Positions 5,263-56,400 of a stretch of DNA of 64,000 nucleotides are shown here, in pieces. Source of the DNA: a virus. Position 1 is the stretch's first letter. Every line of letters begins with the position of its first letter. Location of the stretch: the IMG/VR virus record IMGVR_UViG_3300008952_000009, positions 62,001 through 126,000 of that record; one strand, written 5' to 3'. The notes beneath the pieces were generated by a model. It saw only the letters and a program-made list of their open reading frames with translations. It made no database searches and had not been told where the DNA came from. A program made the translations under genes and the position numbers.

Positions 5263-8200
5263 TTAATCTTCAAATGATGCACCTGAATTGGTGATCATGA
5301 AGTCGATCGCAATGAACTCAATTGCTCTGGCAGGCTTCAAGAAGATCTTTGCGTACATGATATTTCTATCAATCAAATCTGGTGTCGTTGTTGTCTCATC
5401 AAGTACAACCTTGAATTCCGTCAAACCAAATCTAGACTTTACACCGTCCAGGAAAGGTTCTACAGAACCACGGAATCTATCCCATGTTGCTTGTACGTTC
5501 TGATCGAAAAGCAACGTTGCTGCTCTTCTTGACACCTCTTTCTTGATGTAGATCATCAAGCGACGTACATTAATTCTATCAAGTGCTGAAGGCGTTGCTT
5601 GAAGCGTCTTCTGACCAAACACCACAATGCCCTCTGCTGGGAACTGCGCGATTGGGTTAATATTCGCCTCATATAGATCGTCTCTCTCTTTCGAAGAAAC
5701 TCTCTGAGATACTGCAAGTACTGGCAGACCGCCAGCACCCTCTGACAATCCACCTCTGGTGAACCCTGCAGGTGCGAACCATAACTCAGATCTTGCCTGA
5801 GTGCTACCAAACGTTCCAAGTGCCACAACTGACGGTGGTACCCAAATCTGTCGGTCGCTGATCTGGTCAGAGACCTTAACCCAAGGATAGAAAGCACAAG
5901 CATAACTTGAGTTCAACCCTCTGTTCTCTATATTGTCAACTGCTGTTCTGACCTTTGAATTCTGAATTCGGGTCTTGAAGTCATCAGTATTCTCTGTTGA
6001 TGGAATATAACCGCCTGCCTCGATATCAATGACAGCGAGAGTGTCTGCGCGGTCCTCACACGTTCTAATCATGTGATTTGTTATTCTCGTGTTCGTGATG
6101 CCTGGGATGGCAAGAGCGTTCATCTCTACCACCTCTGGATCTGCGACAGCGTCGATGCCGCGCTTAAGTGTCGCGATTTCGTATGCTGTTGTCTCGTCAC
6201 CAGAAGAGAACTTGGAATTTCTAAATGGTTCCTTCTCCGTAATATCAAAACCATCAAACCCACCATATACTGGGCAAGTGAATTTTGCGAACCCTGCCTT
6301 AACTAGGTCCTTATATCCACCTCTCTTGGCGGTGTAGGACTTGTTGAGTGCTCTAGATCCACTGACATATACCGCTGTGCCAACATCTACTGGAGTGATT
6401 GACCCCTGGTTCTTACCAAGGTTAGATGCCAGAGATCCCGACTTACTTACTATGATAAGGTCATCCAAAGTGAACATGAATGAATTCTCTACCTTTGCGG
6501 ATGCTGCAGAGGCGTCATAAACACCTGCGCCCAAGAACCCACTACCCATGCGGCGAGTAATGTCGACGAACGAAGGATCGAACTTTGTATCTGTTGGTGT
6601 TCTGTATGTCGAAACACCAAAGAATGAGTTCTTCGGATTTGACAGACCCTCTTCAGATGCTGAAAGTCTCATTGGTAATGTTGGATAGACCAACGATGCA
6701 GTCAATTTCTGTGGGAATCCCAAATAAGGGATGTTCGTACTACCTGCTGACTTGATACCTGTTGCGCTTGTGCCAGCGACTACGTCTGACGATGCGGCTA
6801 AAATAGCGGACCCAGTTGCTGCGCCCATAAATTTACCTTCGCCATTACTTCCAGAATCATGTACGGTAAATGCGCCAAATCCAGTTGCAACCTTGGTTTC
6901 GCCTGTAGCGATTGTACCCGTCTTGTATCTAGGCGGACCATAGAAACCGAATGGCATACTGATCGGATCGGTAACACCGTTATCAACATCCTGATCAACC
7001 AACACTCTAAAGAATGAAGAGTTGTTGTCATAATTACCGTAAACCCTGTATCTCTTGTCTGTTTCGTCCCACTCTCTGTACTTGTCACCGACTTTACGTC
7101 CGATATAGTTACTAGAGTTAGGGTTTAGATTACACTGTGAGAATCTCTCCAAAACAACTGGCCTTGCATCGTTGTCAGAAATTCTTCTGACCAACACTGA
7201 AAATGTTCCGTAAGGATCTACGTCATTACCTGCCTTTACATCGGTAATTGAAACTTTTAAGTTTCTGGTGTTCCACCCACCGTCGTTAATACCAACAAAT
7301 CTAAACAACTTCTGCATCGCCGCTGCTTTGTATCCAGTACCAATAGCATTTAAATCCTGAGAAAAGATCCAAGGCGTTCTAGAGTCCTGGTGGGCGATTG
7401 CTCTTACCATGCCGCTTGTCGTACTATGAAGAGGTACAATCATAGCGCATAGGGAACTATCAGCAGATAACTCGCCTTTGTGAAGCGATCCACTGGTTCC
7501 TAAGAATCCGTGCGTGTCTTTAGCAAATCTGTCGAATGACTCTCCCAACCAGTATTTTGTTAATCCTGCTGCCTGAGTCGTGTCACCGTTTGTCAGTGTA
7601 GGGTTCGTGTTGAACACCTTTCTAATATATTTGTCCGAATTTCTATCAAAGTTGAAGGTTACTCTTCTTTCTGCCTTTGCGCCGTCTGTAAGAAGTGCTG
7701 AGAACTCCATTTTTGATGAATCCGTCGATTGTACAAGTACGTGAGAACCAGTGCCGTGGATACGTGCGCCTGGCCAGTGTGCTTTTTCACCAGCAAGGTG
7801 TCCAATGGTGCCCGTCAATGCCATTGCGCCCTTTTGGAAGTACCAAACAGCGGCAAGGTTACCTTCCATTGCTCTGTTTTGGTTTAGTTTCTCACCTTGT
7901 GATGTGATTGAGGCATTTTCCCCAACTAAACTGCTACGTCGGTCAACACCGCCCGTAGAAAAAAGATACAAACCATAAACTGCTGATTTGGTGTCATCGA
8001 CAGCAGATGCATCCAAAGACTGATCTAGCGTCCAACCTGCGGCGCCAGCTGAAGTTGCTTGCGGGTCTTCTGTGCCCAACAATCTAACGACATTAACAGG
8101 CCCCGCGTTTTTCAAAAATGCTTGGGCAGCATATGCGGCGTAAGTTGGCGCAGTTTCGTTGCCTTCTCTCCAAACATCACCACCCTTACCTCCTGGGATT

Positions 8201-8385
8201 GGGTTGCCAAACACTTCAATGAATTGTGACATGCTATCGACCCTAAGAGGGATCATACCTGGACCTTTTGCTAGGCGACCAACGATCGTTGGACCTACGT
8301 CCTCTGGCTCTCTTGCCAATTGTGAGTTATCGATCTCATTGAGAAAGATACCTGGGGATACAAATTTAAATCTCTTTACAGACAT
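5263..8385 (-). CDS. Tail sheath protein, T4 gp18-like (enlarged)
   Basis: A 1040-residue contractile sheath subunit. The N-terminus (KFVSPGIFLNEIDNSQLARE, then VGPTIVGRLAKGPG and a FIEVFG motif) is the typical sheath start. The last 350 residues carry the other hallmark: the GLPVLAVSQRVSSKERDDLY region, the IAQFPAEGIVVFGQKTLQ region, the RLMIYIKKEVS helix, FLDGVKSRFGLTEFKVVLDE, and the C-terminal strand through IEFIAIDF. T4 gp18 is about 660 residues, so roughly 350-400 extra residues lie in the middle, probably as surface-exposed insertions. It precedes the tube gene, as in T4. The start has AAGGAG upstream and a CTATTTA motif 56 bases before the ATG. Confidence 0.9.
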   Translation of the reverse strand: MSVKRFKFVSPGIFLNEIDNSQLAREPEDVGPTIVGRLAKGPGMIPLRVDSMSQFIEVFGNPIPGGKGGDVWREGNETAPTYAAYAAQAFLKNAGPVNVVRLLGTEDPQATSAGAAGWTLDQSLDASAVDDTKSAVYGLYLFSTGGVDRRSSLVGENASITSQGEKLNQNRAMEGNLAAVWYFQKGAMALTGTIGHLAGEKAHWPGARIHGTGSHVLVQSTDSSKMEFSALLTDGAKAERRVTFNFDRNSDKYIRKVFNTNPTLTNGDTTQAAGLTKYWLGESFDRFAKDTHGFLGTSGSLHKGELSADSSLCAMIVPLHSTTSGMVRAIAHQDSRTPWIFSQDLNAIGTGYKAAAMQKLFRFVGINDGGWNTRNLKVSITDVKAGNDVDPYGTFSVLVRRISDNDARPVVLERFSQCNLNPNSSNYIGRKVGDKYREWDETDKRYRVYGNYDNNSSFFRVLVDQDVDNGVTDPISMPFGFYGPPRYKTGTIATGETKVATGFGAFTVHDSGSNGEGKFMGAATGSAILAASSDVVAGTSATGIKSAGSTNIPYLGFPQKLTASLVYPTLPMRLSASEEGLSNPKNSFFGVSTYRTPTDTKFDPSFVDITRRMGSGFLGAGVYDASAASAKVENSFMFTLDDLIIVSKSGSLASNLGKNQGSITPVDVGTAVYVSGSRALNKSYTAKRGGYKDLVKAGFAKFTCPVYGGFDGFDITEKEPFRNSKFSSGDETTAYEIATLKRGIDAVADPEVVEMNALAIPGITNTRITNHMIRTCEDRADTLAVIDIEAGGYIPSTENTDDFKTRIQNSKVRTAVDNIENRGLNSSYACAFYPWVKVSDQISDRQIWVPPSVVALGTFGSTQARSELWFAPAGFTRGGLSEGAGGLPVLAVSQRVSSKERDDLYEANINPIAQFPAEGIVVFGQKTLQATPSALDRINVRRLMIYIKKEVSRRAATLLFDQNVQATWDRFRGSVEPFLDGVKSRFGLTEFKVVLDETTTTPDLIDRNIMYAKIFLKPARAIEFIAIDFMITNSGASFED

Positions 8386-8440
8386 ACTGGAAATCTCCTT
8401 ATAACGAAAAATTACAAAATATTATTTATTTTCTCTCTAT

Positions 8441-8447
8441 TAAATAG
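8441..8447 (-). promoter_or_regulatory. Candidate late promoter (CTATTTA) ahead of the tail sheath
   Basis: The coding strand reads GACTATTTAATAG here, 56 bases upstream of the sheath ATG and just downstream of the hairpin terminator at 8493-8512. A terminator followed by this motif is what a new transcription unit for sheath, tube and tape measure would look like. Confidence 0.5.
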
Positions 8448-8492
8448 TCTTTGAAAATTCCAAAAGTTAGTAAAAGAAACAAGAAAAGGAAG

Positions 8493-8512
8493 TGGGGGGC
8501 GTGAGCCCCCCA
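8493..8512 (-). terminator. Rho-independent terminator after the 1329-aa fibre gene
   Basis: A perfect 8-bp stem (TGGGGGGC with GCCCCCCA) and a 4-base loop. On the minus strand it is followed by a T-rich tract (CTTCCTTTTCTTG). It lies 15 bases beyond the fibre stop codon and before the sheath gene. The T-tract is imperfect, so termination may be partial. Confidence 0.75.
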
Positions 8513-8526
8513 TTTAGGTAGGTTTA

Positions 8527-11500
8527 TTATAATGTCTGTGATCCAGATAGGTACTGAACTACCACAACATCATCAGCGTCCATTGTAAGGGTTTCATGCA
8601 AGAAAACCTCGCCGCCGTTATAGTCGATTCTATAGTCACCGTCTCTTGGGTTACCTGCAACGCCGTTACTCTTCACAAGAAGAAGACCATTGAAGTAAAC
8701 CATCTCCGAACCAGACACCATTGAGATGTAAGATCCTGAAGGAGGTAGAGAACAGGTTGTATATAGCGATCCAGAACCCTGAGTTGGCTGTGATCTATTC
8801 ACAATCTTCTTAGAAGATCTACTGAATATTCTTCTGTGCCAACCGACGCTCAACTGACCATTGTTGAATACAAGTCCACCATGTGAATTGGTTGCGCTTT
8901 TAACGATATCGCAATTGAGATGCGCTTTCTTGATCACATCATTTGTAACAATATCATTCAACTGCAATTTATCAACAGTGAGCGTATGCGGTGTTGTTTT
9001 GGATCCAGACAATATATCTGAAGTTATCTTATGGATCGTTGCCGTTCCAGAACCAGAAATGGTTGACGTTGCCGTCAACGTTCTAACTTCAATCTTGTCA
9101 ACATCAAGTAAGTGTCCATCTACAGTAGAACCAGACACCGTACTAGTGATCGTCATTGACACGCCGTCAACATCGTTACCAGTAAGTTTGTCTGTATCTA
9201 GGGTATGCGCCTGAACGGTTGTACCCGAGACTGTTGTAAACGTAGCTGAGGTGCCATCCAGATCTCCAATGTTTGCTTGATTTGAATCAATTTCAAAGAT
9301 CTGTGCGAGAGCACCCGTTACAGTCTGCGCATTGAAGGTAGAACCACTCATAATCGAGTCCTGGTTACCGATCGCAGTGTTGATTGTTACAGTGTGGAAA
9401 ATACCCACTGAACCAGAGATAGATCCCGTGACACCAAATCTCTGACCACCATCACTGACAGAACCACTCAAGGAAGCACCCTGTGTTGATCCGATCTTTA
9501 ACAAGAGATCAAGTCCTGCTCCAGAACCAGCGTCACCCATAACAATACTTGCTACGCCAGCTGAACCAGTACCTGCTGTACCACCAATCTGAAGACCAGC
9601 GCCTTCGGCGGCCACGCCTGTTGAACCACTTGCGTACGCAATGTACTGCTTTTGTGGAACTTCGAAGTGTTCAGATGTTGTCACGCCAGAAGTAATCTTT
9701 CTAGCTGAAAGGTCATCTACCACAATCTTGTAGAACTTACCAGATGAACCTGATATGTCATTACCAGTAACAACATGGAGGTTCGAAGTTCCAGAAGATG
9801 TGATATTGGTTGCGACTACCTTGCGGAAATCACCCTCATCACCATCAATCTTGTGAATTACTGACGTTCCAGAAGATGTGACTACGTTTGCGGTTGCCTT
9901 ATTAAAGGTACCTTCGTCCACGTCTGTCTTATGGAATGTAGAAGTTCCAGAACCAGTAACGACTGTTGCAATAACCTTGCGGAAATCACCTTCGTCTGAA
10001 TCAAGTTTATGAATTTGTGCCGTTCCAGAACCAGTGATCATATAAGCAGCACTTGCTCTAGCAGTGGAGAATTTAACCCCACCGAACGTTCCCTCATCAA
10101 CATTAATCTGGTGGATCGATGCTGTACCTGAACCAGAGATCACAGAAGCGCCTGAATCTAGGTTTAATTTTCCTACTGTCAATGCATCAACATCACCCTT
10201 ATGAAGGGTAGACTCTGCTGTAGACGACGCGGTTAACACACTTAAGTATGTCGTTCCGTACTTGTTTCCAGCTGCACCAAGATTGAGTCCGCCATCAGTA
10301 GATGGTTGAAGTGTTGTTGCAGTTAGATCCAATTCGTCTGTTCCGTTAATGTTCAACTTAAGTGTAGTTTTTGCATTAACCGTCAAAGTAGTTTTGGCAC
10401 TAGAATAAATCTCGCCAGTAGATCCTGAAACACCAGTATAAGCAAAAACTACTTTACCAGCATTTGAAGCAGTCAAATGTACACCATCTGTGGTAATCTT
10501 AGCGATACCATCGAAACCACTTCCGTCGTTATACTGAATTGCTCCTTCATTACCTCTCGCTGCATTCGAGAGAGATAGTGCAGTCTTCAGTTGAGTAAAA
10601 CTAAATGCCTTGGTTTCATTGTCTGATGCGTCACCACAATAAAAATAATCACCATTCACAAAGTCAACGTGATCGTTTCTTGCCTGTGCTGATGTATCCA
10701 AATGAACAACCTGAACAGATCCAGATCCAATATCATCTCTCTGTACTGTACTCGAACCTAACTTAACTGTTGTTACGACACCATCTTTTATTAACTTGGT
10801 GCCTATCTTTGTTACTGCCATTGATGCTCCTCCTACGGCTATGTAATCGCTAAATGAGCTGGCGGTTACGTGTACCTGCCCGCTATCAAAACTATACTTA
10901 CTGGTGGCGAGTTCTGCCCATGCACTGGAAGCGTTCGACCTTCTAAAGATTCTTATTGCCGATGTGCTACCTGTGATGTTCCAAGATAGAATCGCAGGAC
11001 TACTAAAAGATGTACCGTGAGGAACAAATCTAATAATGTCTGACGATGCTCTTGGAGCAATAATCGCTGTACCTAATGCTGAAATATCCGTTGTCGCTGT
11101 GCCTTTGCCAGCACTTTGAGATAGAATCGCTACTGTTACAGTGGTGTTACCAGATAGCGCTCCAGCTGGGATATTTGCTTGAGCGGAAGGGTTAGTGTCA
11201 GTGTTACCTGCTTGTACCAATCCACCGTTTGCTGCCACAACAGAACTAGACACCTCGCCATCAATGGCGGTGGGTTCCACAGCACCTTCGGTTCCCAGAC
11301 CTGTTGTAAAGACATGAAAGTTTGTCGCAGACTGGTTAAGGGAAGCGTTTCTGCCTGGTTCCAAAGAAAGTATACCACCTCCAATAAAGATCTGCCCTGG
11401 GGCACGATCTTCTGGGTTGGTGTTGTAAATCTCTGCCATACCAGATTGAGTTAGAAACTCCGATCTCCACCCACCTGGATATCCTCCAGTGTTTGATCCA

Positions 11501-12516
11501 TTCTCTAGAACATACACAGAGTCAATCGTAAGTGTATCGTGGTAAGTCGCATCCATTCTGTAGAATATCGAACCCTTATAGTGCTTCGAACTGTAACCAG
11601 TCAAAGCTCCCGAACCACCGTCGAAAGAGGACCCAGTCAAAGTATATGCTGGTTGATTTTGTCCAGAATATCCCTGCGATGAAGATGCGTGAACTTCTAC
11701 TTGTGCGTTGTTGAAAATGAGAAGTGAATTACTTGCCGTATGCCACTCCATAGTCATACCAAAGTAAGAACTTGCCTGAGAACCAGTTATTGAGTATGCT
11801 GATGCTGCACCAGCACTTGGAACGTATGATGGCCATCCGTCCAAACTGGATCCTGTTCTTTGAACAATCCAAACTTTATTGTTGTTGGAATCGCCAACTG
11901 CGAATTCGTCATTTGTTCTCAACCATCTCGCAGAATAAACATCCTTTGAGGATTGGTTCGTAACTCGCACTGTTTGTGTCCAGTTCCAACCCGCATCGGC
12001 GTCGTCTGCAGAACCCGAGTTGAAGACCCAGACATACTGATCGCCAGCAGAACCAGGTTCATGGTATGCCAACAATGCGTCTTTGTCCGCACTTATCTCA
12101 AGTTTCCAATTTGTTGCGCCTGATGAGTTGTCATTTCTGGTTATGACCTTGTGAAGACCAAAGTCGACGCCGCCGGCTGATGCCGTGACAATCCCCATTT
12201 CTTCGTATGCGTCATTTGTTGTAAAAATAAACTCTTTGTTGTTAACCCACACAAGATCGATCAATCCACTTGTTGTTCTCTGTGGGACAGAGGATATTAG
12301 ATCCCAGACACCATTCGATCCAGACTTTCTAACATCAATACCGTGATTTAAACTTGAGTCGTTGTTCCTATACCTAGTAGGAATAATCATCAACTCCCCG
12401 TTTGGACTAACCAAACCTGAACGATAACTTCTGGCATCTGCTGAACTCAATGAAGAGGAAACTGGTCCTCTCGTGTTTAGCACTCCAGCCTTATTATCTA
12501 ATATTGTATAAGCCAT
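8527..12516 (-). CDS. Long tail fibre protein with an N-terminal extension (1329 aa)
   Basis: A fibre protein in two parts. Residues 1-565 include Trp-rich beta repeats that look propeller-like (to about 380) and a ZU5-like segment (about 430-560: ANGGLVQAG, then IPAGAL, then FSSPAILSWNI). Residues 566-1329 are a full-length relative of the 758-aa fibre encoded just upstream. They share the start (KIGTKL, then GSGSVQV.HLD), the KTTLTVNAKTTL block, 26-residue repeats around HK.D.DEGDFRKV at residues 794-905, and the C-terminal module (QGSGSLYTT, then SGSEMVY.NG, then LTMDADD). A strong internal ribosome binding site lies at the junction, so a 764-aa product may also be made. AAGGAG precedes the full-length start at 12516. 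A terminator follows. Confidence 0.82.
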   Translation of the reverse strand: MAYTILDNKAGVLNTRGPVSSSLSSADARSYRSGLVSPNGELMIIPTRYRNNDSSLNHGIDVRKSGSNGVWDLISSVPQRTTSGLIDLVWVNNKEFIFTTNDAYEEMGIVTASAGGVDFGLHKVITRNDNSSGATNWKLEISADKDALLAYHEPGSAGDQYVWVFNSGSADDADAGWNWTQTVRVTNQSSKDVYSARWLRTNDEFAVGDSNNNKVWIVQRTGSSLDGWPSYVPSAGAASAYSITGSQASSYFGMTMEWHTASNSLLIFNNAQVEVHASSSQGYSGQNQPAYTLTGSSFDGGSGALTGYSSKHYKGSIFYRMDATYHDTLTIDSVYVLENGSNTGGYPGGWRSEFLTQSGMAEIYNTNPEDRAPGQIFIGGGILSLEPGRNASLNQSATNFHVFTTGLGTEGAVEPTAIDGEVSSSVVAANGGLVQAGNTDTNPSAQANIPAGALSGNTTVTVAILSQSAGKGTATTDISALGTAIIAPRASSDIIRFVPHGTSFSSPAILSWNITGSTSAIRIFRRSNASSAWAELATSKYSFDSGQVHVTASSFSDYIAVGGASMAVTKIGTKLIKDGVVTTVKLGSSTVQRDDIGSGSVQVVHLDTSAQARNDHVDFVNGDYFYCGDASDNETKAFSFTQLKTALSLSNAARGNEGAIQYNDGSGFDGIAKITTDGVHLTASNAGKVVFAYTGVSGSTGEIYSSAKTTLTVNAKTTLKLNINGTDELDLTATTLQPSTDGGLNLGAAGNKYGTTYLSVLTASSTAESTLHKGDVDALTVGKLNLDSGASVISGSGTASIHQINVDEGTFGGVKFSTARASAAYMITGSGTAQIHKLDSDEGDFRKVIATVVTGSGTSTFHKTDVDEGTFNKATANVVTSSGTSVIHKIDGDEGDFRKVVATNITSSGTSNLHVVTGNDISGSSGKFYKIVVDDLSARKITSGVTTSEHFEVPQKQYIAYASGSTGVAAEGAGLQIGGTAGTGSAGVASIVMGDAGSGAGLDLLLKIGSTQGASLSGSVSDGGQRFGVTGSISGSVGIFHTVTINTAIGNQDSIMSGSTFNAQTVTGALAQIFEIDSNQANIGDLDGTSATFTTVSGTTVQAHTLDTDKLTGNDVDGVSMTITSTVSGSTVDGHLLDVDKIEVRTLTATSTISGSGTATIHKITSDILSGSKTTPHTLTVDKLQLNDIVTNDVIKKAHLNCDIVKSATNSHGGLVFNNGQLSVGWHRRIFSRSSKKIVNRSQPTQGSGSLYTTCSLPPSGSYISMVSGSEMVYFNGLLLVKSNGVAGNPRDGDYRIDYNGGEVFLHETLTMDADDVVVVQYLSGSQTL
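9802..10137 (-). repeat. Tandem 26-residue fibre repeats, 1329-aa fibre
   Basis: Four consecutive coding units, the first of 34 residues and then three of 26 (78 bases). Each begins with a (S/T)(G/S)SGT motif followed by HK or HQ and a D.DEG.F core. The units form part of the fibre shaft and match the array in the 758-aa fibre. Confidence 0.85.
10819..10834 (-). promoter_or_regulatory. Internal ribosome binding site and ATG inside the fibre ORF
   Basis: The coding strand reads GTAGGAGGAGCATCAATG. AGGAGG at 10834-10829 lies 7 bases before an in-frame ATG at 10821-10819, ideal spacing. The codons that follow (MAVTKIGTKL) match the first codons of the separate 758-aa fibre gene (MAKTKIGTKL). 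An internal start here would give a 764-residue fibre. The bases also encode Val-Gly-Gly-Ala-Ser, so chance cannot be excluded. Confidence 0.6.
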
Positions 12517-12578
12517 AATTTAATTATTCTCCTTTTGTTATTATGTAAAATAAAATAACAAACACATAAACGAAACAA

Positions 12579-12598
12579 GAGGGGGGGTTACCCCCCTC
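12579..12598 (-). terminator. Rho-independent terminator after the 758-aa fibre gene
   Basis: A perfect 8-bp stem, GAGGGGGG with CCCCCCTC, and a 4-base loop. The minus strand continues TTGTTTCGTTT. It sits 12 bases beyond the stop of the upstream fibre and about 60 bases before the next fibre start, separating the two fibre transcripts. Confidence 0.72.
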
Positions 12599-12609
12599 AA
12601 AACTAAGAC

Positions 12610-14886
12610 TTAAGAGATCGTTCCCGAGAGAAACTGAACGACAAGAATATCGTCAGCATCCATAGTAAGACTCTCGTGCAATTCAACTGTCACAGGACCA
12701 TTGCTGCTGTTGTAGTCAATGGTATAGTCACCGTCGACTGGCGGTCGCTGCGTTGCTGGTGCAGGGATGAGAAGAACACCATTTAGGTATACCATCTCGG
12801 AACCTGACATGATGATCGTCGGAGCCCCGCTTGTTGTTGCCAAAGATGCAGTCGTATATAGAGAACCAGAACCCTGTGCAGGTGCTGCTGCTCTGTTTGC
12901 AACAGATGTATCTCTAGAGAAAATCTGTCTCTGGTGTCCAATACTCAAAACACCGTTTGCAAAGTTAAGTCCACCGTTACCGTTGTCTATATCATAAACA
13001 ATATCTCTGTTTAAGTTTGCTGCCTTGACAACATCAGTCGAAACGATAACACCCACGTTCAATTTGTCTGTGTCCACATTGTGTGCGGTCAAGACTGAAC
13101 CAGATAATACATCTGAAGTTACCTTGTGGATTGTTGCTGTTGCTGAACCAGAAATGGTCGATGTTGCATCTATTCTTCTAACCTCGATCTTATCGACGTC
13201 AAGAAGGTGAGCATCAACGGTCGAACCAGATACTGTTCCCGTGAATGTTGCAGAAGTTCCGTCAAGATCCTGAACGGTTACCTTGTCTGCATCAGTCGTG
13301 TGAGCCTGAACAGTTGTACCAGATACCGTAGTAAAGGTAGCAGATGTACCGTCCAAGTCAAGGATGCTTGCCTGGTCTGCATCAATCTCGTGATACTGTA
13401 CAATCGTACCTGACAAGGTGTGGAATGTACCCTTAGAACCAGAGAATGATGTTGCCGTCAATCCCTTCGCTACGTCCAATTCCTGGAAAATACCAAGAGA
13501 TGCTGAAAGTGTACCAGACACACCAAATAATACTGCGTCATTCTTTCTACCACCTGTGGTTGAAAGCGAGAGACCCTGTGTGGAACCAATCTTGAAAAGA
13601 AGATCAGAACCAGCGCCGCCGCCTGCGTTACCCAAGATTACACTTGCGATACCGCTTGAACCAGAACCTGCAGTGCCACCAATCTGAAGGCCTGCGCCCT
13701 CAACAGAATCACCTGCGGATCCTGATGCCGCAGCAATGATCTGCTTATTAACGATTTCAAAATGCTCTGAAGTCGTAATGCTGGATTTGTACGTTCTTGC
13801 GTCAAGAACATCTACAACCAACTTGCGGAACTTACCAGAAGAACCAGAGAGTTCATCTGCCGTTACGACATGGAGGTTTGATGTACCAGAAGACGTAATG
13901 TTTGTAGCAACTACCTTACGGAAGTCGCCTTCGTCGCCGTCAATCTTATGGAAGAGCGATGTGCCCGAACCAGATACGACAGTACCGATAATCTTGTTAA
14001 AGGTACCTTCGTCAACATCAACCTTGTGAAAGAGTGAAGTGCCTGAACCTGTAACCACAGGTGCGATAACCTTATTGAAAGTACCCTCATCTACGTCAAC
14101 CTTGTGAATCTGTGCGGTTGCCGAAGCAGAGAGGTTTGTTGTCTTTACAACATTAAATGTTGCGTCATCTACGTCCAACTTGTGAAGCGTAGAGGTACCA
14201 GAACCAGTGATGGTTGTTGCTGTTACCTTTCTTGCGTCAAGACTATCTACATCCAACTTGTGGATTGTGGAAGTTCCTGAACCAGATACTGCATCAAGAT
14301 ACAGTGTTCCGTATTTCTTTGCTGCTGCACCGAGGTTGAGTCCACCGTCCGAAGAAGGCTGAAGTGTTGTTGCATTTAGGTCCAACTCATCGGTTCCGTT
14401 GATATTGAACTTTAATGTCGTCTTTGCATTGACCGTCAAAGTGGTTTTAGCGCTAGAATAAATCTCGCCAGTAGAACCTGAAATTGCAGTGTATGCAAAC
14501 ACTACCTTACCGCCGTCAGAAGCGGTCAAGTGAACACCGTCTGTTCTAATCTTTGAGATAGCGTCCATCGCATTTGTGCCGCCTTCGCCGTGAAACTGAA
14601 TGTGTCCTTCGTTACCGACAGCTGCATTAGATGCTGAAACCGCTGCTTTGAGGTGTGCGAACGTGACCGTCCTCATGCCACCGCTTTTGCCCTTAGATGC
14701 GGATACGATTAAGACGTCGGCATCCTCAAGATGCGCCACGTCGCTACGTGCTTGGAATAGGTCTAAGTGACCGACTTGAACTGAACCTGATGCGATCTTA
14801 TCGCGAGTTACTGCGGAAGTATTTAACTTCGCAGTTGTGATGGCACTATTTGCCAATAGTTTTGTGCCAATTTTTGTTTTAGCCAT
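12610..14886 (-). CDS. Tail fibre protein (758 aa), paralog of the downstream fibre
   Basis: A beta-rich fibre of low complexity (Ser, Thr, Gly, Asp, Val) with few aromatic residues, as in trimeric phage fibres. Order: an N-terminal attachment-like segment (MAKTKIGTKLLANSAITTAK), a KTTLTVNAKTTL block near residue 145, five exact-length 26-residue repeats at residues 201-330, a second group of SGT.V..H..D.DK repeats (about 470-600), and a C-terminal module with GSGSLYTT, SGSEMVYLNGVLL and LHESLTMDADDILVV. The same order recurs in residues 566-1329 of the next gene, so the two arose by duplication. AAGGAG precedes the start, and a strong terminator follows. The pair probably forms parts of host-binding fibres. 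Confidence 0.82.
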   Translation of the reverse strand: MAKTKIGTKLLANSAITTAKLNTSAVTRDKIASGSVQVGHLDLFQARSDVAHLEDADVLIVSASKGKSGGMRTVTFAHLKAAVSASNAAVGNEGHIQFHGEGGTNAMDAISKIRTDGVHLTASDGGKVVFAYTAISGSTGEIYSSAKTTLTVNAKTTLKFNINGTDELDLNATTLQPSSDGGLNLGAAAKKYGTLYLDAVSGSGTSTIHKLDVDSLDARKVTATTITGSGTSTLHKLDVDDATFNVVKTTNLSASATAQIHKVDVDEGTFNKVIAPVVTGSGTSLFHKVDVDEGTFNKIIGTVVSGSGTSLFHKIDGDEGDFRKVVATNITSSGTSNLHVVTADELSGSSGKFRKLVVDVLDARTYKSSITTSEHFEIVNKQIIAAASGSAGDSVEGAGLQIGGTAGSGSSGIASVILGNAGGGAGSDLLFKIGSTQGLSLSTTGGRKNDAVLFGVSGTLSASLGIFQELDVAKGLTATSFSGSKGTFHTLSGTIVQYHEIDADQASILDLDGTSATFTTVSGTTVQAHTTDADKVTVQDLDGTSATFTGTVSGSTVDAHLLDVDKIEVRRIDATSTISGSATATIHKVTSDVLSGSVLTAHNVDTDKLNVGVIVSTDVVKAANLNRDIVYDIDNGNGGLNFANGVLSIGHQRQIFSRDTSVANRAAAPAQGSGSLYTTASLATTSGAPTIIMSGSEMVYLNGVLLIPAPATQRPPVDGDYTIDYNSSNGPVTVELHESLTMDADDILVVQFLSGTIS
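13897..14286 (-). repeat. Five tandem 78-bp coding repeats in the 758-aa fibre
   Basis: Five in-frame units of exactly 26 codons (residues 201-330), each opening with (S/T)GSGTS or SASATA, then HK(L/V/I)D.D and a hydrophobic V.. ending. They form a regular shaft segment. The related array in the 1329-aa fibre makes recombination between the two genes plausible. Confidence 0.88.
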
Positions 14887-14966
14887 TTTAATTGCTCCTT
14901 AGTGTATGTTTTTTATTTTTTCACTAACAAAAACCAACAGCACATTAAACGGACTGGGTTTGTGAA

Positions 14967-15182
14967 TTACGAAAAGAGAACCTTCTTCAGATTTCTAACG
15001 TTATTATCAAACTTACAAAACTCACTATTCAAGAACTCTAACGAAAGAGCTTGGCACTCACCTAACCTATCATCAAACTCAAAATGAAACTTTCCTGAAT
15101 CTAATCGCCTACATCTAATCAGGTTAATACCCTTTAACTGCAAGTAAGCGGCGATTCCTATATCAGATGTTGTAAAATTCAT
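14967..15182 (-). CDS. Small DUF5659-like protein
   Basis: A 71-residue protein opening with TTSDIGIAAYLQLKGINL, then a basic beta-hairpin and a C-terminal helix ending NLKKVLF. That order (a short T.D..LA..L...G strand-helix, F.F.D strand, then a helix) fits the DUF5659 family as I know it, small proteins of unknown function found in phages and bacteria. The ATG at 15182 has GAGAGG just upstream, and a CTATTTA motif 19 bases before it. It sits between the tail-terminator cluster and the fibres. It is not obviously structural. Confidence 0.65.
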   Translation of the reverse strand: MNFTTSDIGIAAYLQLKGINLIRCRRLDSGKFHFEFDDRLGECQALSLEFLNSEFCKFDNNVRNLKKVLFS

Positions 15183-15200
15183 ATTATACCTCTCTCACTT

Positions 15201-15207
15201 TAAATAG
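15201..15207 (-). promoter_or_regulatory. Candidate late promoter (CTATTTA) ahead of the DUF5659-like gene
   Basis: The coding strand reads GAGACTATTTAAAG in the 28-base gap between the stop of the 146-aa gene and this gene's ATG, 19 bases upstream of the start. It could drive the DUF5659-like gene and the fibre that follows. Confidence 0.45.
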
Positions 15208-15210
15208 TCT

Positions 15211-15651
15211 CTACTGCTTAACAAACGCTAAATTTCCTGTACCGTTGGAATCTAATTCCAATGTGTATCCTGCGTTTGGATCTAACTTATACTTTTCTCG
15301 AAGAAGTTGTAAGATTTGCTCATTACCTTCCCTGATTCTCTCAATCTCTTCTAACATTAGAATTTTTTTCACCTCATGATCTCTCATGTAGATCCCATAT
15401 TCAGTAAGTTTACCATTCATATTATCCCTACCATCGAGCAATGATTGGGTATCATCTGGATATAAAACAACATAAGAGTCGTCAAAGGGTTCCTCTTCTT
15501 CCTCTTCTTCTTCTTCCCATTCTTCCTCAAGATCGTCGGGATCCATACCCGCCTTAAGGGTTTCTGCGGCAAGTAACGCCTTGTTGGCCAATTCTGGATT
15601 TTCTTCTTTCAAATCATCCAGCATTCCCAATAATTTATTTAAAACTGACAT
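15211..15651 (-). CDS. Acidic protein of unknown function
   Basis: A 146-residue protein with an uninterrupted acidic tract around residues 41-55 (mostly Glu, one Trp), a helical N-terminus and a helical region (about 95-125: ILMLEEIERIREGNEQILQ), and a beta-like C-terminus. There are no Cys clusters, membrane segments or catalytic motifs. AAGGAGG sits 8 bases before the ATG. It is coupled to the tail-terminator-like genes just upstream (17-base gap), so an assembly chaperone or small tail protein is possible. I do not recognise the family. Confidence 0.72.
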   Translation of the reverse strand: MSVLNKLLGMLDDLKEENPELANKALLAAETLKAGMDPDDLEEEWEEEEEEEEEPFDDSYVVLYPDDTQSLLDGRDNMNGKLTEYGIYMRDHEVKKILMLEEIERIREGNEQILQLLREKYKLDPNAGYTLELDSNGTGNLAFVKQ

Positions 15652-15668
15652 TCTCGCATCCTCCTTCT

Positions 15669-16892
15669 TTAATCAGCAATATAACTAAATAGTATGTTCG
15701 CCTCATTCTGGGGCGCTTCTTCGAAAGTAACCACCCTACCAGACAAAGTATAGTCATTATCTGCCCCGATAAGCATCAAAAGACCTTGGTTAAACACCAT
15801 AAGTGTTCCTGCAACAAAATCCTCTGGTACTGTAAATTGTGTAGTCGATCCGTCAGCTGTCTCGGTGGGTGTTTGGGCAACTTTGTAATTAGTAGTTGTC
15901 ACAGAGTCTGCAGAAGATGACGATCCTCCACCTCCACCACCGCCTGTGGTAGCTTCCGTTGTTGTTGCGCCTGGGTTTCTAACTTGCTTATAGTTTGCAA
16001 TATTGTCATCAACCTTTGGTAACAACAAGTCTGATTTAAGTCCTTCAAGTCCATACAATCTCCCGTTTACAGTATCTAGGTCATCACCAGTAATTATCCT
16101 CTCCCTCGGTATCTTAACTTCAACAATGTTTTCTCGAATAGAAACATTTGGTTGAAGTCTATTGACATTCTCTCCAGTTAGCCACCCAAGAACCTCAATG
16201 TTGAGTTTTGTCTCAAACTTTCTTTCTTCGTTTGAAAAGTTGCTTATATTGTTGTTCTGAGAGAAGTCCTCCTGTATAAACGCTTCATACCTTAATCTCC
16301 CCTCTTCAATTATTACGTAATTGATGCCACCTGGTCTTGTTATGAAGGGTGTCACTATTTGATTCATTTGTTGTTGATATTCCGTTCTTAGGGTTATTTC
16401 ATACTGGACCGTGACATAGACTGGTAGTGGGATTGTTAATGTCTCATAGACTATCTTGCTATTCTTCTTTGAGAAATTTAATTGTCCTGCCCTTTTATAC
16501 ATCGAAGCATTTGCAAAATTAGAAGTCTTATCTTGCTTAATTCGCCTGGAAACTGATATGGATCCGCCCTTTACTTTATCAATAGGTGGAATATTTGCAA
16601 ACACAGTACCCTTCCTCGAAGGATCCTTGGTGATGTTAGATCTCTCTATTGTTATAACTGGCAGAACCAGGGTACCGTCCTTGTCCCTGAATCTACTATC
16701 CTTCTTACTTTGAAATAACCTTTCAGATGAAGTCCATACCACTGGCACTTTCTTAAACCCAGTTGGCGTAATGCACCTAATGTCTAGCGTTTCTTCTATA
16801 AATTTATGCATTGCTAGATCGATCGTTTCCATCGTGGACGGGGGAAAAGGAATATCTTCCAATCTTCTAGATTTTGTGACTGATAATACCAT
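15669..16892 (-). CDS. Tail terminator / sheath stabiliser-like protein with C-terminal beta module
   Basis: A 407-residue paralog of the next gene upstream. The two align from residue 24 through about 270, sharing TGFKKVPV, SKKDSR.RD, GGINY and ISNFSNEERKFETK. The pattern (virion protein with conserved VPV strands, a PLPVYVTV.Y.ITLRTEYQQQMN helix, gene order after gp13/gp14-like neck proteins) suggests the tail terminator or sheath stabiliser role of T4 gp15 or gp3. This copy adds a Thr/Gly linker with a run of Gly near residues 318-325 and a C-terminal beta module (STTQFTVPEDFVAGTLMVFN, then a VVTF strand and ILFSYI) resembling the end module of the fibres. The assignment rests on synteny. 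Confidence 0.6.
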   Translation of the reverse strand: MVLSVTKSRRLEDIPFPPSTMETIDLAMHKFIEETLDIRCITPTGFKKVPVVWTSSERLFQSKKDSRFRDKDGTLVLPVITIERSNITKDPSRKGTVFANIPPIDKVKGGSISVSRRIKQDKTSNFANASMYKRAGQLNFSKKNSKIVYETLTIPLPVYVTVQYEITLRTEYQQQMNQIVTPFITRPGGINYVIIEEGRLRYEAFIQEDFSQNNNISNFSNEERKFETKLNIEVLGWLTGENVNRLQPNVSIRENIVEVKIPRERIITGDDLDTVNGRLYGLEGLKSDLLLPKVDDNIANYKQVRNPGATTTEATTGGGGGGGSSSSADSVTTTNYKVAQTPTETADGSTTQFTVPEDFVAGTLMVFNQGLLMLIGADNDYTLSGRVVTFEEAPQNEANILFSYIAD

Positions 16893-50486: not shown

Positions 50487-53400
50487 TTACTCCTTACTAA
50501 ATCCAACGAATCCAGATGACTGCAAATCAAGGGGTTTGTACTTAAAATCAATAGAAGTACCAATATTAACTAGTTCAATTAACGAAAAGTAATCATATGG
50601 CCAGTTAAAACCATACTCAAATATATCATTTTCCACACTAAGTTTCTTTTCAGGATGTCCGTCTGGAAGTTTGTCTAGTTTCTTTTTCTTAAAGTAATTC
50701 GTTTGTGCTTTCTGCTTAACCTTGAATACCATCCACTGGACGTCTTCATCAAACCCGCCATCCTCCATGAGGTCGGTTGGTCCGAATAGTTCATGATCAA
50801 CCACTTGCGAACTAATAATCCTAGAACCCTCTCCATAGTACGAATCCAAACCGACGTCGGGTGTCACATTTTGCCAAATATTTGCTACATCCTGACGTGA
50901 AAGCGTTACGGAAAACTCAAATATATACATTGCAAATGGTTCAATAAATTTTGAAGTCGGATCATTATATTTTAAGAAGTTAAAGTGCGGTGGAATATTA
51001 TAATCCATCATAGATTTAACCATCTTGAAAATGGATCTTCTTGGTGTAATTGCTCTAGGTGGATCACCCAACCTATCACTCGATGCATCACCTGGTAAAG
51101 ACCCTCCTGATCTGCGGGCAGCTGCATCGTCTAAAATATTCGCTGCTTCTCTCTGTTCACGGCGAGCATCTTCCGTGTCAAGTCTATATTCTGGGAATCC
51201 CAAATTTCTAACTGACTGGTATACTTCCTCTTTTGGAAGTTTGAAGAACTTCTTTTCTCCATTAACAGTCTTAAAAGGAACTGCGATAACCGCCTCTTTG
51301 ATTAATTTTGATGATGGGAGCGAACCGATTTTGTTATATTCACGTTCTATCCCAAGTCCTATAAGTTTAGATAGGTCTCCCTTTGATCGATCTCTAGGTC
51401 CACCAATCCAAACAGACGGGCGAGTCTTGCCTGTTATGCTGCCTGTCTGGTGCCAGATCCCTTTTATTTTCGGCAAAGTCTGTGTCGTTTTTGAAGTTCT
51501 TGGTTGATCAACATCTCCATCGGCGGTGCCAGTGAAGTTAAACGTAGGACACTCAAATCTAGTTTGAAGTACCAAAGAACTTCTATTTTCAATAATATCC
51601 CCTGTTTCAGAATTATATGATTGAACAAAACTATCTTCATTAAATCCAAAACCACTGAAACTGGCACTAAGGTGCATGGCATGATCCCTGTTTACAGAAG
51701 CTGGTATCATCATAGTCACTGACGAGTCTGTGGTGGATCTTCCAGATCCCTTAGAAGACATGGACCCCGTTGCTGATACGAATCTCTCAAATTCGACAGT
51801 AGTTTCTGAAAGGATTTGTCTTATTGAATTATATTGGGTATTTGAGTCTGGAGTAAATTTTAACGTCGCTTCTGCAAGACCGTCATAATGAGGCGGCAAA
51901 TATGGTGCAAACCCATACCCTAGTTTGTCATAATATCTTGGCAAGTTAATACCACCAGGCGTCTTGGTTTTGACTCGACCAACGTCGCACGGCGGGCCGA
52001 AAGCTGCTGGATTGTTATACATTGGATTATCACGACTTGTCCCGCGGCCGCTGCCAAGTATAACTCTTGCCTCATAGGTGCTCACACTGGAGTCGATTTC
52101 TTGTGGGACATCTGATGACCTTATTGTCACACCCTTACTGTTTTCAATAAACAAGTTCAAACATTCTGCATAGAAATTACTTGCGGCGCGGGTGTACATC
52201 GTTGTTGTCGATGCTATTGCATCAAGATCAAGTTTAGTTACGAGAGAAGACGAGTGCGCAGCGACACCACGGACGAAATCCGTATTTTGAACTGCACCCG
52301 TGACATTAAAACTGCCCGACCATACGGTTGGCCCAGACAAATCACCAGTCAATCTTCTCTTAACGGTATTGGCACCCAAGAGACTTGCGCTCGGATGAGG
52401 TTCCATTTCATAAAACAACGTCTGATTTCCATCTTCTGTAGAAACTGTGGGCGGAGTGTATATCGCAGGATCTACAATTGCCTCAAACGGTATTCTTGTA
52501 ACGGACTTTATCCCCGTGTCTATATTCAAACTCAGCGAAGTGGGTTCACTACCTATATCCATCGATCCAGTGTAAAAATGTTTATGATATTCTGGAGATC
52601 CTATTCTCGGGATCGAGGCGTCATCCGTAAAATTAAACTTAGAACCAACAACAAAAGTTGGAATAGTGTATGCCCCTGAAACAAAAGTGTTTGCGCTTCC
52701 AGATAGTCCAGCTGGGTGGTTGTCTCTCAAAGTAGACTCTACCATATAACCGTCTCGTGACCTGGTGGTTGTTCCAAGAACCTTCCAGTTGACACCTGCG
52801 TTGTCGCGGGCATTAGTCCACCAAGTTTTAAATGCTGGGGCGTCGTAAGTAGTTGATCCATTGCCCTCAATTTCGCCACCATTAAGAACATAATAGTATA
52901 GAGTATATTGTGCTGGATTTGTTATGTCAGTAATACCGTTCCACCTTCTTCTGGATCTGCTTGACCAACTCGGTGACTGATCCAGGGATCCAGACCAAGT
53001 CGAAAATCCATAAAAGGTGCCAGAAAGATGATTCGCCAATGTAGGGGCAGCAGTAGTGTCGGGGATCTTAGATTCGAAAGATCCTGATGAGGCAAGTATA
53101 GTTTTACCACTATACAATGGAGATGCATGATTAAACACTGGTAAATTGTTTGTCATGCTAGCATCCGTCAAATAATCTGATGATGCATAAAGGCTTGACT
53201 TTGCCTTCATATACCCAGTGTCATTTCCAGGTCGGTACCATGCCACTAGGTTATCGTGTAAGGATCGAGGCAAGACAGTATATGGGTTTCTTGGACCTAT
53301 TTGAGATCCGTGGTTTTTAGACTGAAACTTTGCGGATGAGGCGGTGTCGCCCTGCGATAGCGCACTGATCTGTGTTGCGCCAGCTGGTGGGTTGTCGGGA

Positions 53401-56400
53401 TTAGATCCCCCAAGTGCATAAACAGAATATTTGTCTAATTGCTTATTGAAAACTAAAACTTCAGTCATGATGTTTTCAGAGGGTTTGGTTGTTGCTAGTC
53501 CGCGCTTCAAGGTTGAATCAACTGTATTTCCGAGAAATCCGAGGTCTACATTACTATCGGCATTTAGGGATTTTACTGCTCCTAGATGCGACCCTAGATA
53601 ACAATTTCTTTCACCGTCCAAAACTACAGAAGCGGCGCTCGAACCATCAAGAGTAAACCCTGCTGACGAGGTTATTTCAGCGGCTGTGCTATATGGGCGA
53701 CCATTAACAAAACACTTAAAGTTGTCGACGTCGATCGTGTTTAAATCGAACTCCACATAATAATGGTTCCACCCAGGGTTGAATCTTGCTCCATCTGGTG
53801 GCGTGCACTTCATAACGAAAAAATCCTTTCCATTTCCGCCAGCAGCAACAAAGTGGGTCTTAAACTTTTTATTTGCTCCAGTCTGGGCCTGGGCTTTGTT
53901 TTCAAATCCCGAATAAGTGAGAGAATCATTATCAATAGCATACCCAAGGTGAAAACCCTTCTTGAATGCAGCCTGATCTTCTACTTCTCCACTACCAAGC
54001 GAAATCACGGTACCACACTGCTGGAGGGGGTAGAGCGAATCCATAGAGAAACTACGCCAATCCTGTTCTCGTCCTCGGGCATTAGTCATCGGCAAATACA
54101 TCCAAAACGATACACCAATCTTGTCATTGTGATTGCCGCTGGCGATGGACCCTGTCAGAGACTTAGCCCATTCGCTGCCTCCACCAATCTCAATTCTGTT
54201 TCTTGATAGATTGGGGTTTGCCTTCGGAAAATTATCAAAATCAGAACTTGAACCCGTCATCATATATGAAGTAACGCTGGCGGATTGGAACATGACACCA
54301 TACTGGTTATATATCTTGTCTTCGTGGGGTTCGAAAATAGGATAATCAACCGAGATGCCCGACTTGATTGTATTAAATGCAATACCTGGAGCGTAATAAG
54401 GCGCTAACACGTTTCTCCATAATCCATCAGCATGCTGACTGTAAGAGGAACTAAATTCTGATGCTAATTGAGTCATTCTATCCGCAGGGTACAATCCCTT
54501 GTAAGGTAAAAATTTCTTTAATGCCTTACACTTCAGCATTAACCGCTGTGGAGTAGCGCTCTTTATTTCCAGCATCTGCTCTTCAACGACTTCAAAATCT
54601 TTTACAAAATCAGTATGACTATAAATTTTATAAAAATTATCCATCGAACTATTGGATGGAGAGGCTGCTCCAGTGATGGTTAGGAAAGAGTCGTTACACG
54701 TAAAGTATGGATCGGCGCCACCTACGGTATTAATGTAGTGATCCATGTGCTCACTAATTCTGAATTCTGGCACCAAAGAAAAGTCCTTTGCTATCAACCG
54801 AGTCTGGTGGGCAAAATCATTATAGTTATCAAAATTAAACGGATTTCGACCAGAGTGTTCTGGGGTCTTAAAGAATTGAGATCCGAACAGGTGATGATCT
54901 ACCCTTTCGTCTTTCTTGTAGATATTTTGTATATGGTATCCGCCTGATTGATGTAGGAAATATGCGAACGTTCCACTTGCCTCTTCAAATCCATATGTAG
55001 GCGTGTTCGTATTGTTTGAGTTGCCAAACGATCCAGTGTAAAACCTGCCACGAAGATCTGCATAATTCGAAATCTTTGTTGTCGATATGACCGAATGGCC
55101 GGTTTCATCGAAAGGAGTAAACAATTCTTTCTTTGAATTTGTTGGCGTATATGTTCTTACTGAAGACGTTATAAACGATGCAGTCATGTCTGAGATGGCC
55201 ATCTCCAGAGTATTATTTACAACATTTAGATCTGCAAACGTATCACGTTCGATGGTCTTCATCTCAAACACATTCGGCGCCTTCATTGCCCATTGCCCAG
55301 AAATGTCGTTGGCAGCACTTGAACCCGTAACAACAGAAACAAATCGTATCTTCTGGTTAGTCAAAGACGCTGTAACTAGTACATCAACAAACTGATACGC
55401 TGTGTCGCTGGCGTATGTGTCAATATCTCCAGAGGACGACCCTATTGTTGCAACAGTTCGGTACCCCCTATCACCACGAGACTGATCTTCGTCGCCGATT
55501 TGTACATAAAATGGCGTTGTTGATTTGTGGACAATACCGCCGCCAGCAGCTGTTGTGCTGGCGCCAGTCCTAAGTAGGAACGTAATCTTGCCAGGAAAGT
55601 CATATGAAGAAGTAGTTCGAACCCATCTATACAGCGTATGTTCAGAACTCTTAGGAGGATCATACATTGCCGAAACCGCAACAGACCGCCCAACAAAAGC
55701 CATTGGCGAAAGTCCCGATGGGGTTCCAAAATCATCTGACATCACTCTTGGCCCAACCTGTGCTTCGGTGACACTGTTAGTTGGACCACTAGCTGTTCCA
55801 TAACTAGACCCATTATAAGTGTGTGTTTTCCATCCTGGTGGTAGTCCTGGACTTGTGTTGAATCCGCTGCCTCCTATTGAATTATAATTGGTCGTGTTTG
55901 CTGCTTGGAAAAAAAGATCATTTTCGGGAAATACGTTCGTAGTATTGAGACCTTGATCATAAATCTTTCCTGCCGAATATGATGCAGACAAAATAAATCT
56001 TTGAACTGTGAAAGAGTTAGGCAAACTAGATGTAGCTTGCATTGGGAACGGTCTCGCGAAGACGGCACTTGCACTAGGAAAGTGTAAGTTATTGTGGAAA
56101 ACAGAATAGTTCGCAAATAGCTCACCTGCGCCGTCAGCGCCCAAGTGATCAGATGTTGTCTTCAGCGCTGTTGTTCTAAAATTATCAGGTTCATCTAATG
56201 GCCAAATCGACATTCTCGGAATCGTATTTCCTTGTGAATTTGTTACGTTCGTTAACGTACGTTCGGATCGCACTGTTTTCCAAAAATCATCAGTTTTAAA
56301 CTCGGTTCTTTGTCTAGTTCTCTCAAGATATGCATTTTCCTCTTTCGGAAAAATGTCCATATCAAACCTTGCCCAGTCTGTAACTGGTTTACTTAAATCA

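Follow-up and report, generated by a model that had tools for sequence, protein, structure and literature searches.

A module with a predicted ZU5-like domain added in frame at the former start of a phage tail fibre gene

The tail fibres and tailspikes of phages are modular: domains are swapped between related fibres, with conserved flanks as the points of recombination. Internal initiation within a phage gene has precedents in the endolysins LysIME-EF1 and CTP1L, as described in the relevant sections of PMC7098653 and PMC4777826. A second way in which one gene can yield two polypeptides is self-cleavage; excerpts of PMC8195603 state that ZU5/FIIND proteins are expected to cleave themselves, and the corresponding part of PMC3210808 places the cut in CARD8 and NLRP1 at SF/S, before the last beta strand. 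ZU5 autopeptidases of bacteria, according to excerpts of PMC3482391, lie near the N-termini of filamentous toxins, often together with beta-propellers, and are proposed to cut these toxins at the base. Among the literature matches listed, internal starts were represented by endolysins, with no case in a fibre or tailspike gene, and no paper placed a ZU5 domain in a phage fibre (ZU5 combined with phage, bacterial or fibre topics). Excerpts of PMC4728585 describe a single fibre protein replaced by two, LtfA and LtfB, and contain no internal start, and those of PMC7445788 mention internal initiation in T4 only in general terms. PMC9710869, considered as a precedent for dual starts, was set aside, its relevant section concerning a misannotated start.

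The locus described here lies in a window of 64,000 nt, the whole stretch of DNA that was analysed, which is part of a 146.6-kb virus record. The next gene downstream of the fused fibre ORF encodes a contractile-tail sheath (5263-8385), indicating that the locus belongs to the tail region of a myovirus. Its features are as follows.

8527-12516, minus strand: fused fibre ORF P0001, 1329 aa
11287-12516, minus strand: first part of the module, residues 1-410; no counterpart in the unfused orthologues, homologues in L005, L015 and L056/L057 (about 25% identity)
10822-11286, minus strand: second part of the module, residues 411-565, predicted ZU5-like domain (AF2 model and matches to ankyrin ZU5 structures)
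10849-10857, minus strand: Ser554-Phe555-Ser556, candidate self-cleavage motif before the last strand (sequence, model and the motif in excerpts of PMC3210808)
10829-10834, minus strand: AGGAGG, Shine-Dalgarno-like, in codons Val561-Gly562-Gly563 (sequence and pairing energy)
10819-10821, minus strand: internal in-frame ATG, Met566, the ancestral fibre start codon (relatives and paralogue alignment)
8527-10821, minus strand: ancestral fibre, 764 aa (alignment to the paralogue and unfused orthologues)
12517-12561, minus strand: leader containing AGGAG (12529-12533) and homologous to that of the unfused fibre gene (alignment and shuffles)
12579-12598, minus strand: terminator-like hairpin after the paralogue gene
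12610-14886, minus strand: paralogous fibre gene P0002, 758 aa, without the module

Several further observations concern the surroundings. The sheath protein has 1040 aa, and its family matches are confined to about the last 300-340 residues. GC-rich terminator-like hairpins lie 3' of both fibre genes (12579-12598 and 8493-8512), and the one after the paralogue gene is found at the same place in relatives in the leader alignment. The window also holds a 4178-aa ORF (50487-63023). PHROGs returned nothing useful for either fibre, and Rfam gave no match in 8400-15700.

A preliminary description of this DNA had pointed to a Shine-Dalgarno sequence and start codon within the 1329-aa ORF, and both are present: the minus strand reads ...GCC GTA GGA GGA GCA TCA ATG GCA GTA ACA..., with the hexamer at 10834-10829, a 7-nt spacer and the ATG of Met566 at 10821-10819. 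The paralogue also begins at this ATG, as had been noted, residues 566-1326 of P0001 aligning with P0002 from its residue 1 (BLASTP, 472 of 778 identical, 61%).

The fibre occurs without the module in nine records (L008, L009, L010, L016, L018, L019, L022, L026 and L055). In every one of them the counterpart of the Met566 ATG is the start codon of the gene, and in all eight that span the upstream DNA (all but L008) the gene directly follows the paralogue. An in-frame TAA directly precedes the fibre ATG in seven of the nine; L019 and L026 have GAA. The module precedes the fibre in nine records, namely the window's own, four that are 100% identical in protein, L005 (a 98% relative of the window), L015, L056 and L057. 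L015 contains only the start of the module, 60% identical over 142 residues, after which the contig ends. L056 and L057 are 99.9% identical in DNA, and each encodes a 1843-aa protein with a diverged module, about 25% identical to that of the window over the first 410 residues and 55% over the final 150. Because the fibre exists as a separate gene starting at the homologue of Met566, this codon is a relic of the old start, and the contrast between nine unfused and nine module-bearing records identifies residues 1-565, by sequence comparison, as a module added at the old start, in two lineages. The fusion of two genes, which the preliminary description had offered as its alternative, thus finds support in relatives whose fibre part is a separate gene beginning exactly at this ATG. 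As to whether the two parts are separate genes elsewhere, a check proposed there, the fibre part stands alone in the nine unfused records; the two as separate adjacent genes occurred in none of the records examined.

Trees of both genes, which rest on few and partly short sequences, suggest that the module has been gained or lost repeatedly. In the fibre tree, built without L018 (23 codons only), L056 and L057 grouped with the unfused L022 and L055 (support 0.91 and 0.95), apart from the window and L005. In the paralogue tree (all but four records labelled unfused; the sequence of L017, L021, L023, L024, L029 and L030 stops short of the fibre start), L015 fell weakly (0.74) beside a group containing the unfused L019 and three records that do not reach the fibre. 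Differences between the window and L005 are concentrated at the junction, with 18 of 84 falling within 123 nt (10765-10887), as against a maximum of 13 in 5,000 random placements. This cluster fits recombination at the junction, perhaps the exchange of a short tract. Three unfused orthologues (L008:50-3661, L009:7919-11530 and L010:4027-7665) have a related insert domain, with sequence like GTYRFTFTSGSTGG...ATVSYNATSSINGTASIE, in two additional copies, one within the first half of the protein and the other near the C-terminus; the window fibre has neither.

The second part of the module has a predicted ZU5-like fold. The AF2 model of residues 411-565 is of modest confidence (pLDDT 56, pTM 0.57), and its matches are dominated by ankyrins, which fill ranks 1-13 in Foldseek (best E, 4.7e-5; 4 matches at E ≤0.001) and ranks 1-9 in VIA (Z 9.8-11.6; 3f59_A with Z 11.1 and rmsd 2.9 over 124 residues). 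Sequence profiles do not detect this likeness: the Pfam ZU5 profile PF00791 gave no listed match at E up to 10 with HMMER filters on, and the domain is therefore termed ZU5-like only. The last strand is predicted at residues 558-563 and includes the Gly-Gly. Residues 1-409 have a weak match to RMC1_N (E 0.018, under the Pfam cut-off), a family that we take to be a beta-propeller, and such a fold for residues 1-410 is a guess; a model of the whole module from 3 sequences reached a pLDDT of 29.8.

Module relatives outside the fused records were searched for with scans that reach only sequences sharing short exact peptide patterns or falling within stated E-values. Within this reach, no free-standing relatives were found in viral contigs, in genome contigs or in phage records (tblastn with P0001 or P0007), and none by sequence in solved structures. 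The viral structure library contained no match to the ZU5-like model at E ≤0.001. The best viral match, BFVD A0A6J5SXR0, an 856-aa protein of an uncultured Caudovirales, is weak (Foldseek E 8.1e-3); other phage proteins may also contain such domains.

The fused ORF has a leader that can be aligned with its counterpart in front of the unfused fibre gene, sharing the terminator-like hairpin, a T-rich stretch, a GGAG-type Shine-Dalgarno and TAA-AT at the start; in most of the aligned fibre leaders AACAAA precedes the GGAG-type sequence. The mean alignment score of fused leaders to eight unfused leaders (L008 was left out, its leader being equal to that of L009) was reached by 1, 0 and 0 of 1,000 shuffles for the window, L015 and L056, respectively. 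Fused leaders scored 25-32 against the best unfused fibre leader, compared with at best 22 against 24 other window leaders. When the junctions were aligned with the fibre leaders, their scores were reached by 44, 15 and 7 of 1,000 shuffles (window, L056 and L057). With the hexamer masked, which would also hide much of what a short relic might have left, 140, 128 and 144 of 500 shuffles scored as high (the window being the first of the three junctions). Since a leader of the old type already stands upstream of the module and the masked junction is unlike the leaders, the hexamer is better explained by the codons for Val/Ile-Gly-Gly, and the internal Shine-Dalgarno is probably a by-product of coding. 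Given the residues Val-Gly-Gly and the codon usage of the window, the probability of AGGAGG is 0.072, and it is about 0.07 for Val and for Ile alike. The suggestion that the old start persists here as a relic therefore holds for the ATG, at which the unfused relatives start, and is not supported for the Shine-Dalgarno.

The same comparisons bear on a history in which the module was once a separate gene between paralogue and fibre, its stop codon being lost and the Shine-Dalgarno of the fibre becoming the Val-Gly-Gly codons, which we consider very unlikely. It would account for the similarity of the unmasked junctions to leaders and for the sequences of particular relatives: the L055 and L022 leaders read CAATAGGAGGT and TAATAGGAGGT, respectively, with the 7-nt spacer length of the window and a TAA in frame ahead of the ATG, and the L057 junction shares CAATAGGAGGT with the L055 leader. 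L055 is also the best leader match of the L056 and L057 junctions, and no unfused record lies nearer to L057 in the fibre tree than L022 and L055. However, a fibre-type leader is already present upstream of the fused ORF, masking removes the leader likeness of the junction, and the three-gene arrangement was not seen in the records examined.

The account that we favour, with moderate confidence, is that a 565-residue module ending in a ZU5-like domain was placed in frame at the start of a fibre gene, and that the full-length fused protein is made from the old leader. AGGAGG would encode the Val/Ile-Gly-Gly end of the last ZU5 strand and, by coincidence, put a strong Shine-Dalgarno ahead of the former start codon. 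The module would be a cassette that is exchanged through recombination, flanked by the leader on one side and by the conserved 5' end of the fibre gene on the other, and would have come or gone more than once. Because no free-standing donor of the module was found, we infer the direction and mechanism of transfer. Counted against this account are the presence of the hexamer in both lineages, with the ATG matched by a GTG able to start translation, the somewhat leader-like unmasked junctions and the position of L022 and L055 as the nearest unfused relatives of L056.

Under an alternative that is possible but doubtful, AGGAGG recruits ribosomes that begin translation at Met566, so that a short fibre of 764 aa is produced alongside the 1329-aa protein, giving mixed fibres or two kinds of fibre. 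A Shine-Dalgarno-like sequence and start codon, AGGAGG-N7-ATG, do lie at the boundary between module and fibre. An in-frame AGGAGG-N4-10-ATG occurs exactly once in the 42 window ORFs, whose start codons are those listed mechanically, as against 0.97 expected from shuffling; one further in-frame site is AGGAGG-N8-TTG (TTG at 21563). At least one AGGAGG-N4-10-ATG was present in 63% of 500 synonymous-codon shuffles, so finding one somewhere in the window is no surprise, and what is remarkable is its position at the ancestral start. AGGAGG is found 16 times on the coding strand of these ORFs, compared with 28.5 (sd 4.9) in synonymous shuffles; excerpts of the survey in PMC6107199 indicate that a scarcity of Shine-Dalgarno-like hexamers within genes can reflect a general shortage of G-rich words. 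The same excerpts argue that internal Shine-Dalgarno motifs may be inconsequential, yet note that internal AGGAG-AUG is slightly overrepresented, which could be a sign of dual starts.

The strength of the site argues for its use. The anti-Shine-Dalgarno pairing energy is -10.2 kcal/mol, a value reached by 3 of the 42 ORF starts and 5 of 387 internal in-frame ATGs (the Met566 site included) and better than at 39 of the 42 listed starts; the full ORF's own start has -8.7 kcal/mol and a 12-nt spacer. The accessibility of the site is less favorable. Opening the RNA at the internal ATG costs 9.4 kcal/mol, and 23 of 30 ORF starts (from the 42, doubtful or overlapping starts being left out) are easier to open, as is the start of the full ORF itself (3.6 kcal/mol). 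Internal ATGs have a higher median, 10.9 kcal/mol, 94 of 297 being as easy to open as the Met566 site.

Relatives that keep the residues while the Shine-Dalgarno bases have degenerated, named beforehand as the case against an internal start, were not seen: AGGAGG is intact in all four distinct junction sequences, which represent two lineages only. It is followed by ATG in the window and L005 and, in the diverged L056 and L057, by GTG at a 10-nt rather than a 7-nt spacer, a difference that weakens the argument for internal initiation (opening energies at the GTG, 8.9 kcal/mol in L056 and 11.6 kcal/mol in L057). The L056/L057 junction keeps Ile-Gly-Gly in a domain whose synonymous sites are almost saturated (matches at 13 of 40 fourfold sites). 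In codons 561-575, 10 of 15 third bases are shared between the window and L056 and 9 of 15 between the window and L057, against an overall third-base agreement of 40% from codon 411 on; another stretch reaches 12 of 15, so the junction is not the most conserved part, and no excess of synonymous conservation was found there in the comparison with L056 and L057. The window and L005 differ at one position in codons 560-569, which lie in a stretch that varies between these two. Internal initiation at Met566 is plausible from the sequence and the endolysin precedents, and some of it is likely at so strong a site, but nothing shows selection for it. Transcription signals were also considered. TATAAATA, which we take to be the T4-type late promoter motif, is matched exactly at 3 sites of the window, each on the plus strand, a number at chance level, and sigma-70-like promoters number 9 in 8400-15300, compared with 12.6 in shuffles. 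A weak sigma-70-like promoter (9/12, TGGGCA-18-TATAGT, minus strand, 10920-10891) about 70 nt before the internal ATG is probably a chance match.

The fold of the module raises another route to two proteins from one gene, this one needing no second start. The ZU5-like domain would cut its own chain between Phe555 and Ser556, leaving a 555-aa module bound through the last strand of the domain, and a 774-aa fibre, a tentative proposal that we hold to be rather unlikely. In addition to the predicted fold from Foldseek and VIA, the sequence directly before the last strand is Ser-Phe-Ser in the window and Thr-Phe-Ser in L056 and L057, with Phe and Ser invariant. Alignments of the model to the GAIN chains 4dlq_A (Z 5.1) and 7qu8_A (Z 5.9) and to the NLRP1 FIIND chain 7crv_A (Z 5.7) stop, in all three cases, at model residue 145, which is Phe555. 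These three chains presumably end at their own cleavage sites. The alignment to the ZO-1 chain 2kxr ends at residue 145 as well, however, and we know of no cleavage in that chain; the best structure matches are ankyrins, which are not known to cleave themselves. The model is of low confidence, and Z values of 5-6 to GAIN and FIIND chains may reflect only a common arrangement. In addition to the missing Pfam ZU5 match, the C-terminal CxH motif named in excerpts of PMC3482391 is absent, there being no Cys in TASSFSDYIAVGG, and equivalents of CARD8 His252, His270 and Glu279, as given in the relevant part of PMC3210808, could not be placed. Two His and one Glu are invariant between the lineages (alignment positions 90, 139 and 125) and are not equated with the CARD8 residues. 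The 774-aa cleavage product (79.36 kDa, computed) and the 764-aa internal-start product (78.44 kDa) are so nearly equal in mass that sizing on gels would hardly separate them; the calculated masses are 137.9 kDa for the full-length protein, 58.6 kDa for the 555-aa module and 78.3 kDa for a short fibre beginning at Ala567. Because the cleavage site lies 10 residues upstream of Met566, the N-termini distinguish the two, Ser556 from Met566/Ala567.

Self-cleavage and internal initiation are not mutually exclusive, and the likelihoods given to the explanations therefore overlap. An unlikely combination, drawn from the model and by analogy with the GAIN domains of adhesion GPCRs, would make the module a self-cleaving ZU5 cassette cut at F555/S556 and clamped to the fibre by the last strand, with the internal start adding a few bare fibres, so that the whole would act as a two-state or mixed adsorption device. 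If self-cleavage is true, a phage adhesion device would be using a clamp of the ZU5/GAIN type. Under the favored account of an inserted module, the locus provides a precise natural junction for adding or dropping a large domain before a tail fibre with the first residues of the fibre undisturbed. One gene could supply two fibre proteins, with two separable predictions, an N-terminus at Ser556 or at Met566/Ala567.

The candidate domain shares its predicted fold, the (H/S)F-S before the last strand and an N-terminal position ahead of a filament with the group formed by the self-cleaving ZU5/FIIND domains of PIDD, CARD8 and NLRP1 and the bacterial ZU5 autopeptidases. Unlike these systems, it has no Pfam match and no CxH, its catalytic partners are unplaced, its context is a phage fibre, and it is known from sequence and a model. 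Like the endolysins LysIME-EF1 and CTP1L, the fused fibre gene has, where two domains meet, an internal ribosome-binding site and an ATG in frame, such that its C-terminal part could be made alone. For the endolysins, both products have been demonstrated and, according to the relevant section of PMC7098653, all 36 relatives retain the site, whereas the fibre gene has the site in two lineages, one with GTG, and is known from sequence alone. In its apparent swapping of a domain between conserved flanks, the locus resembles the modular tail fibres and tailspikes, from which it differs in that the added part is N-terminal, ahead of what is otherwise the first residue of the fibre.
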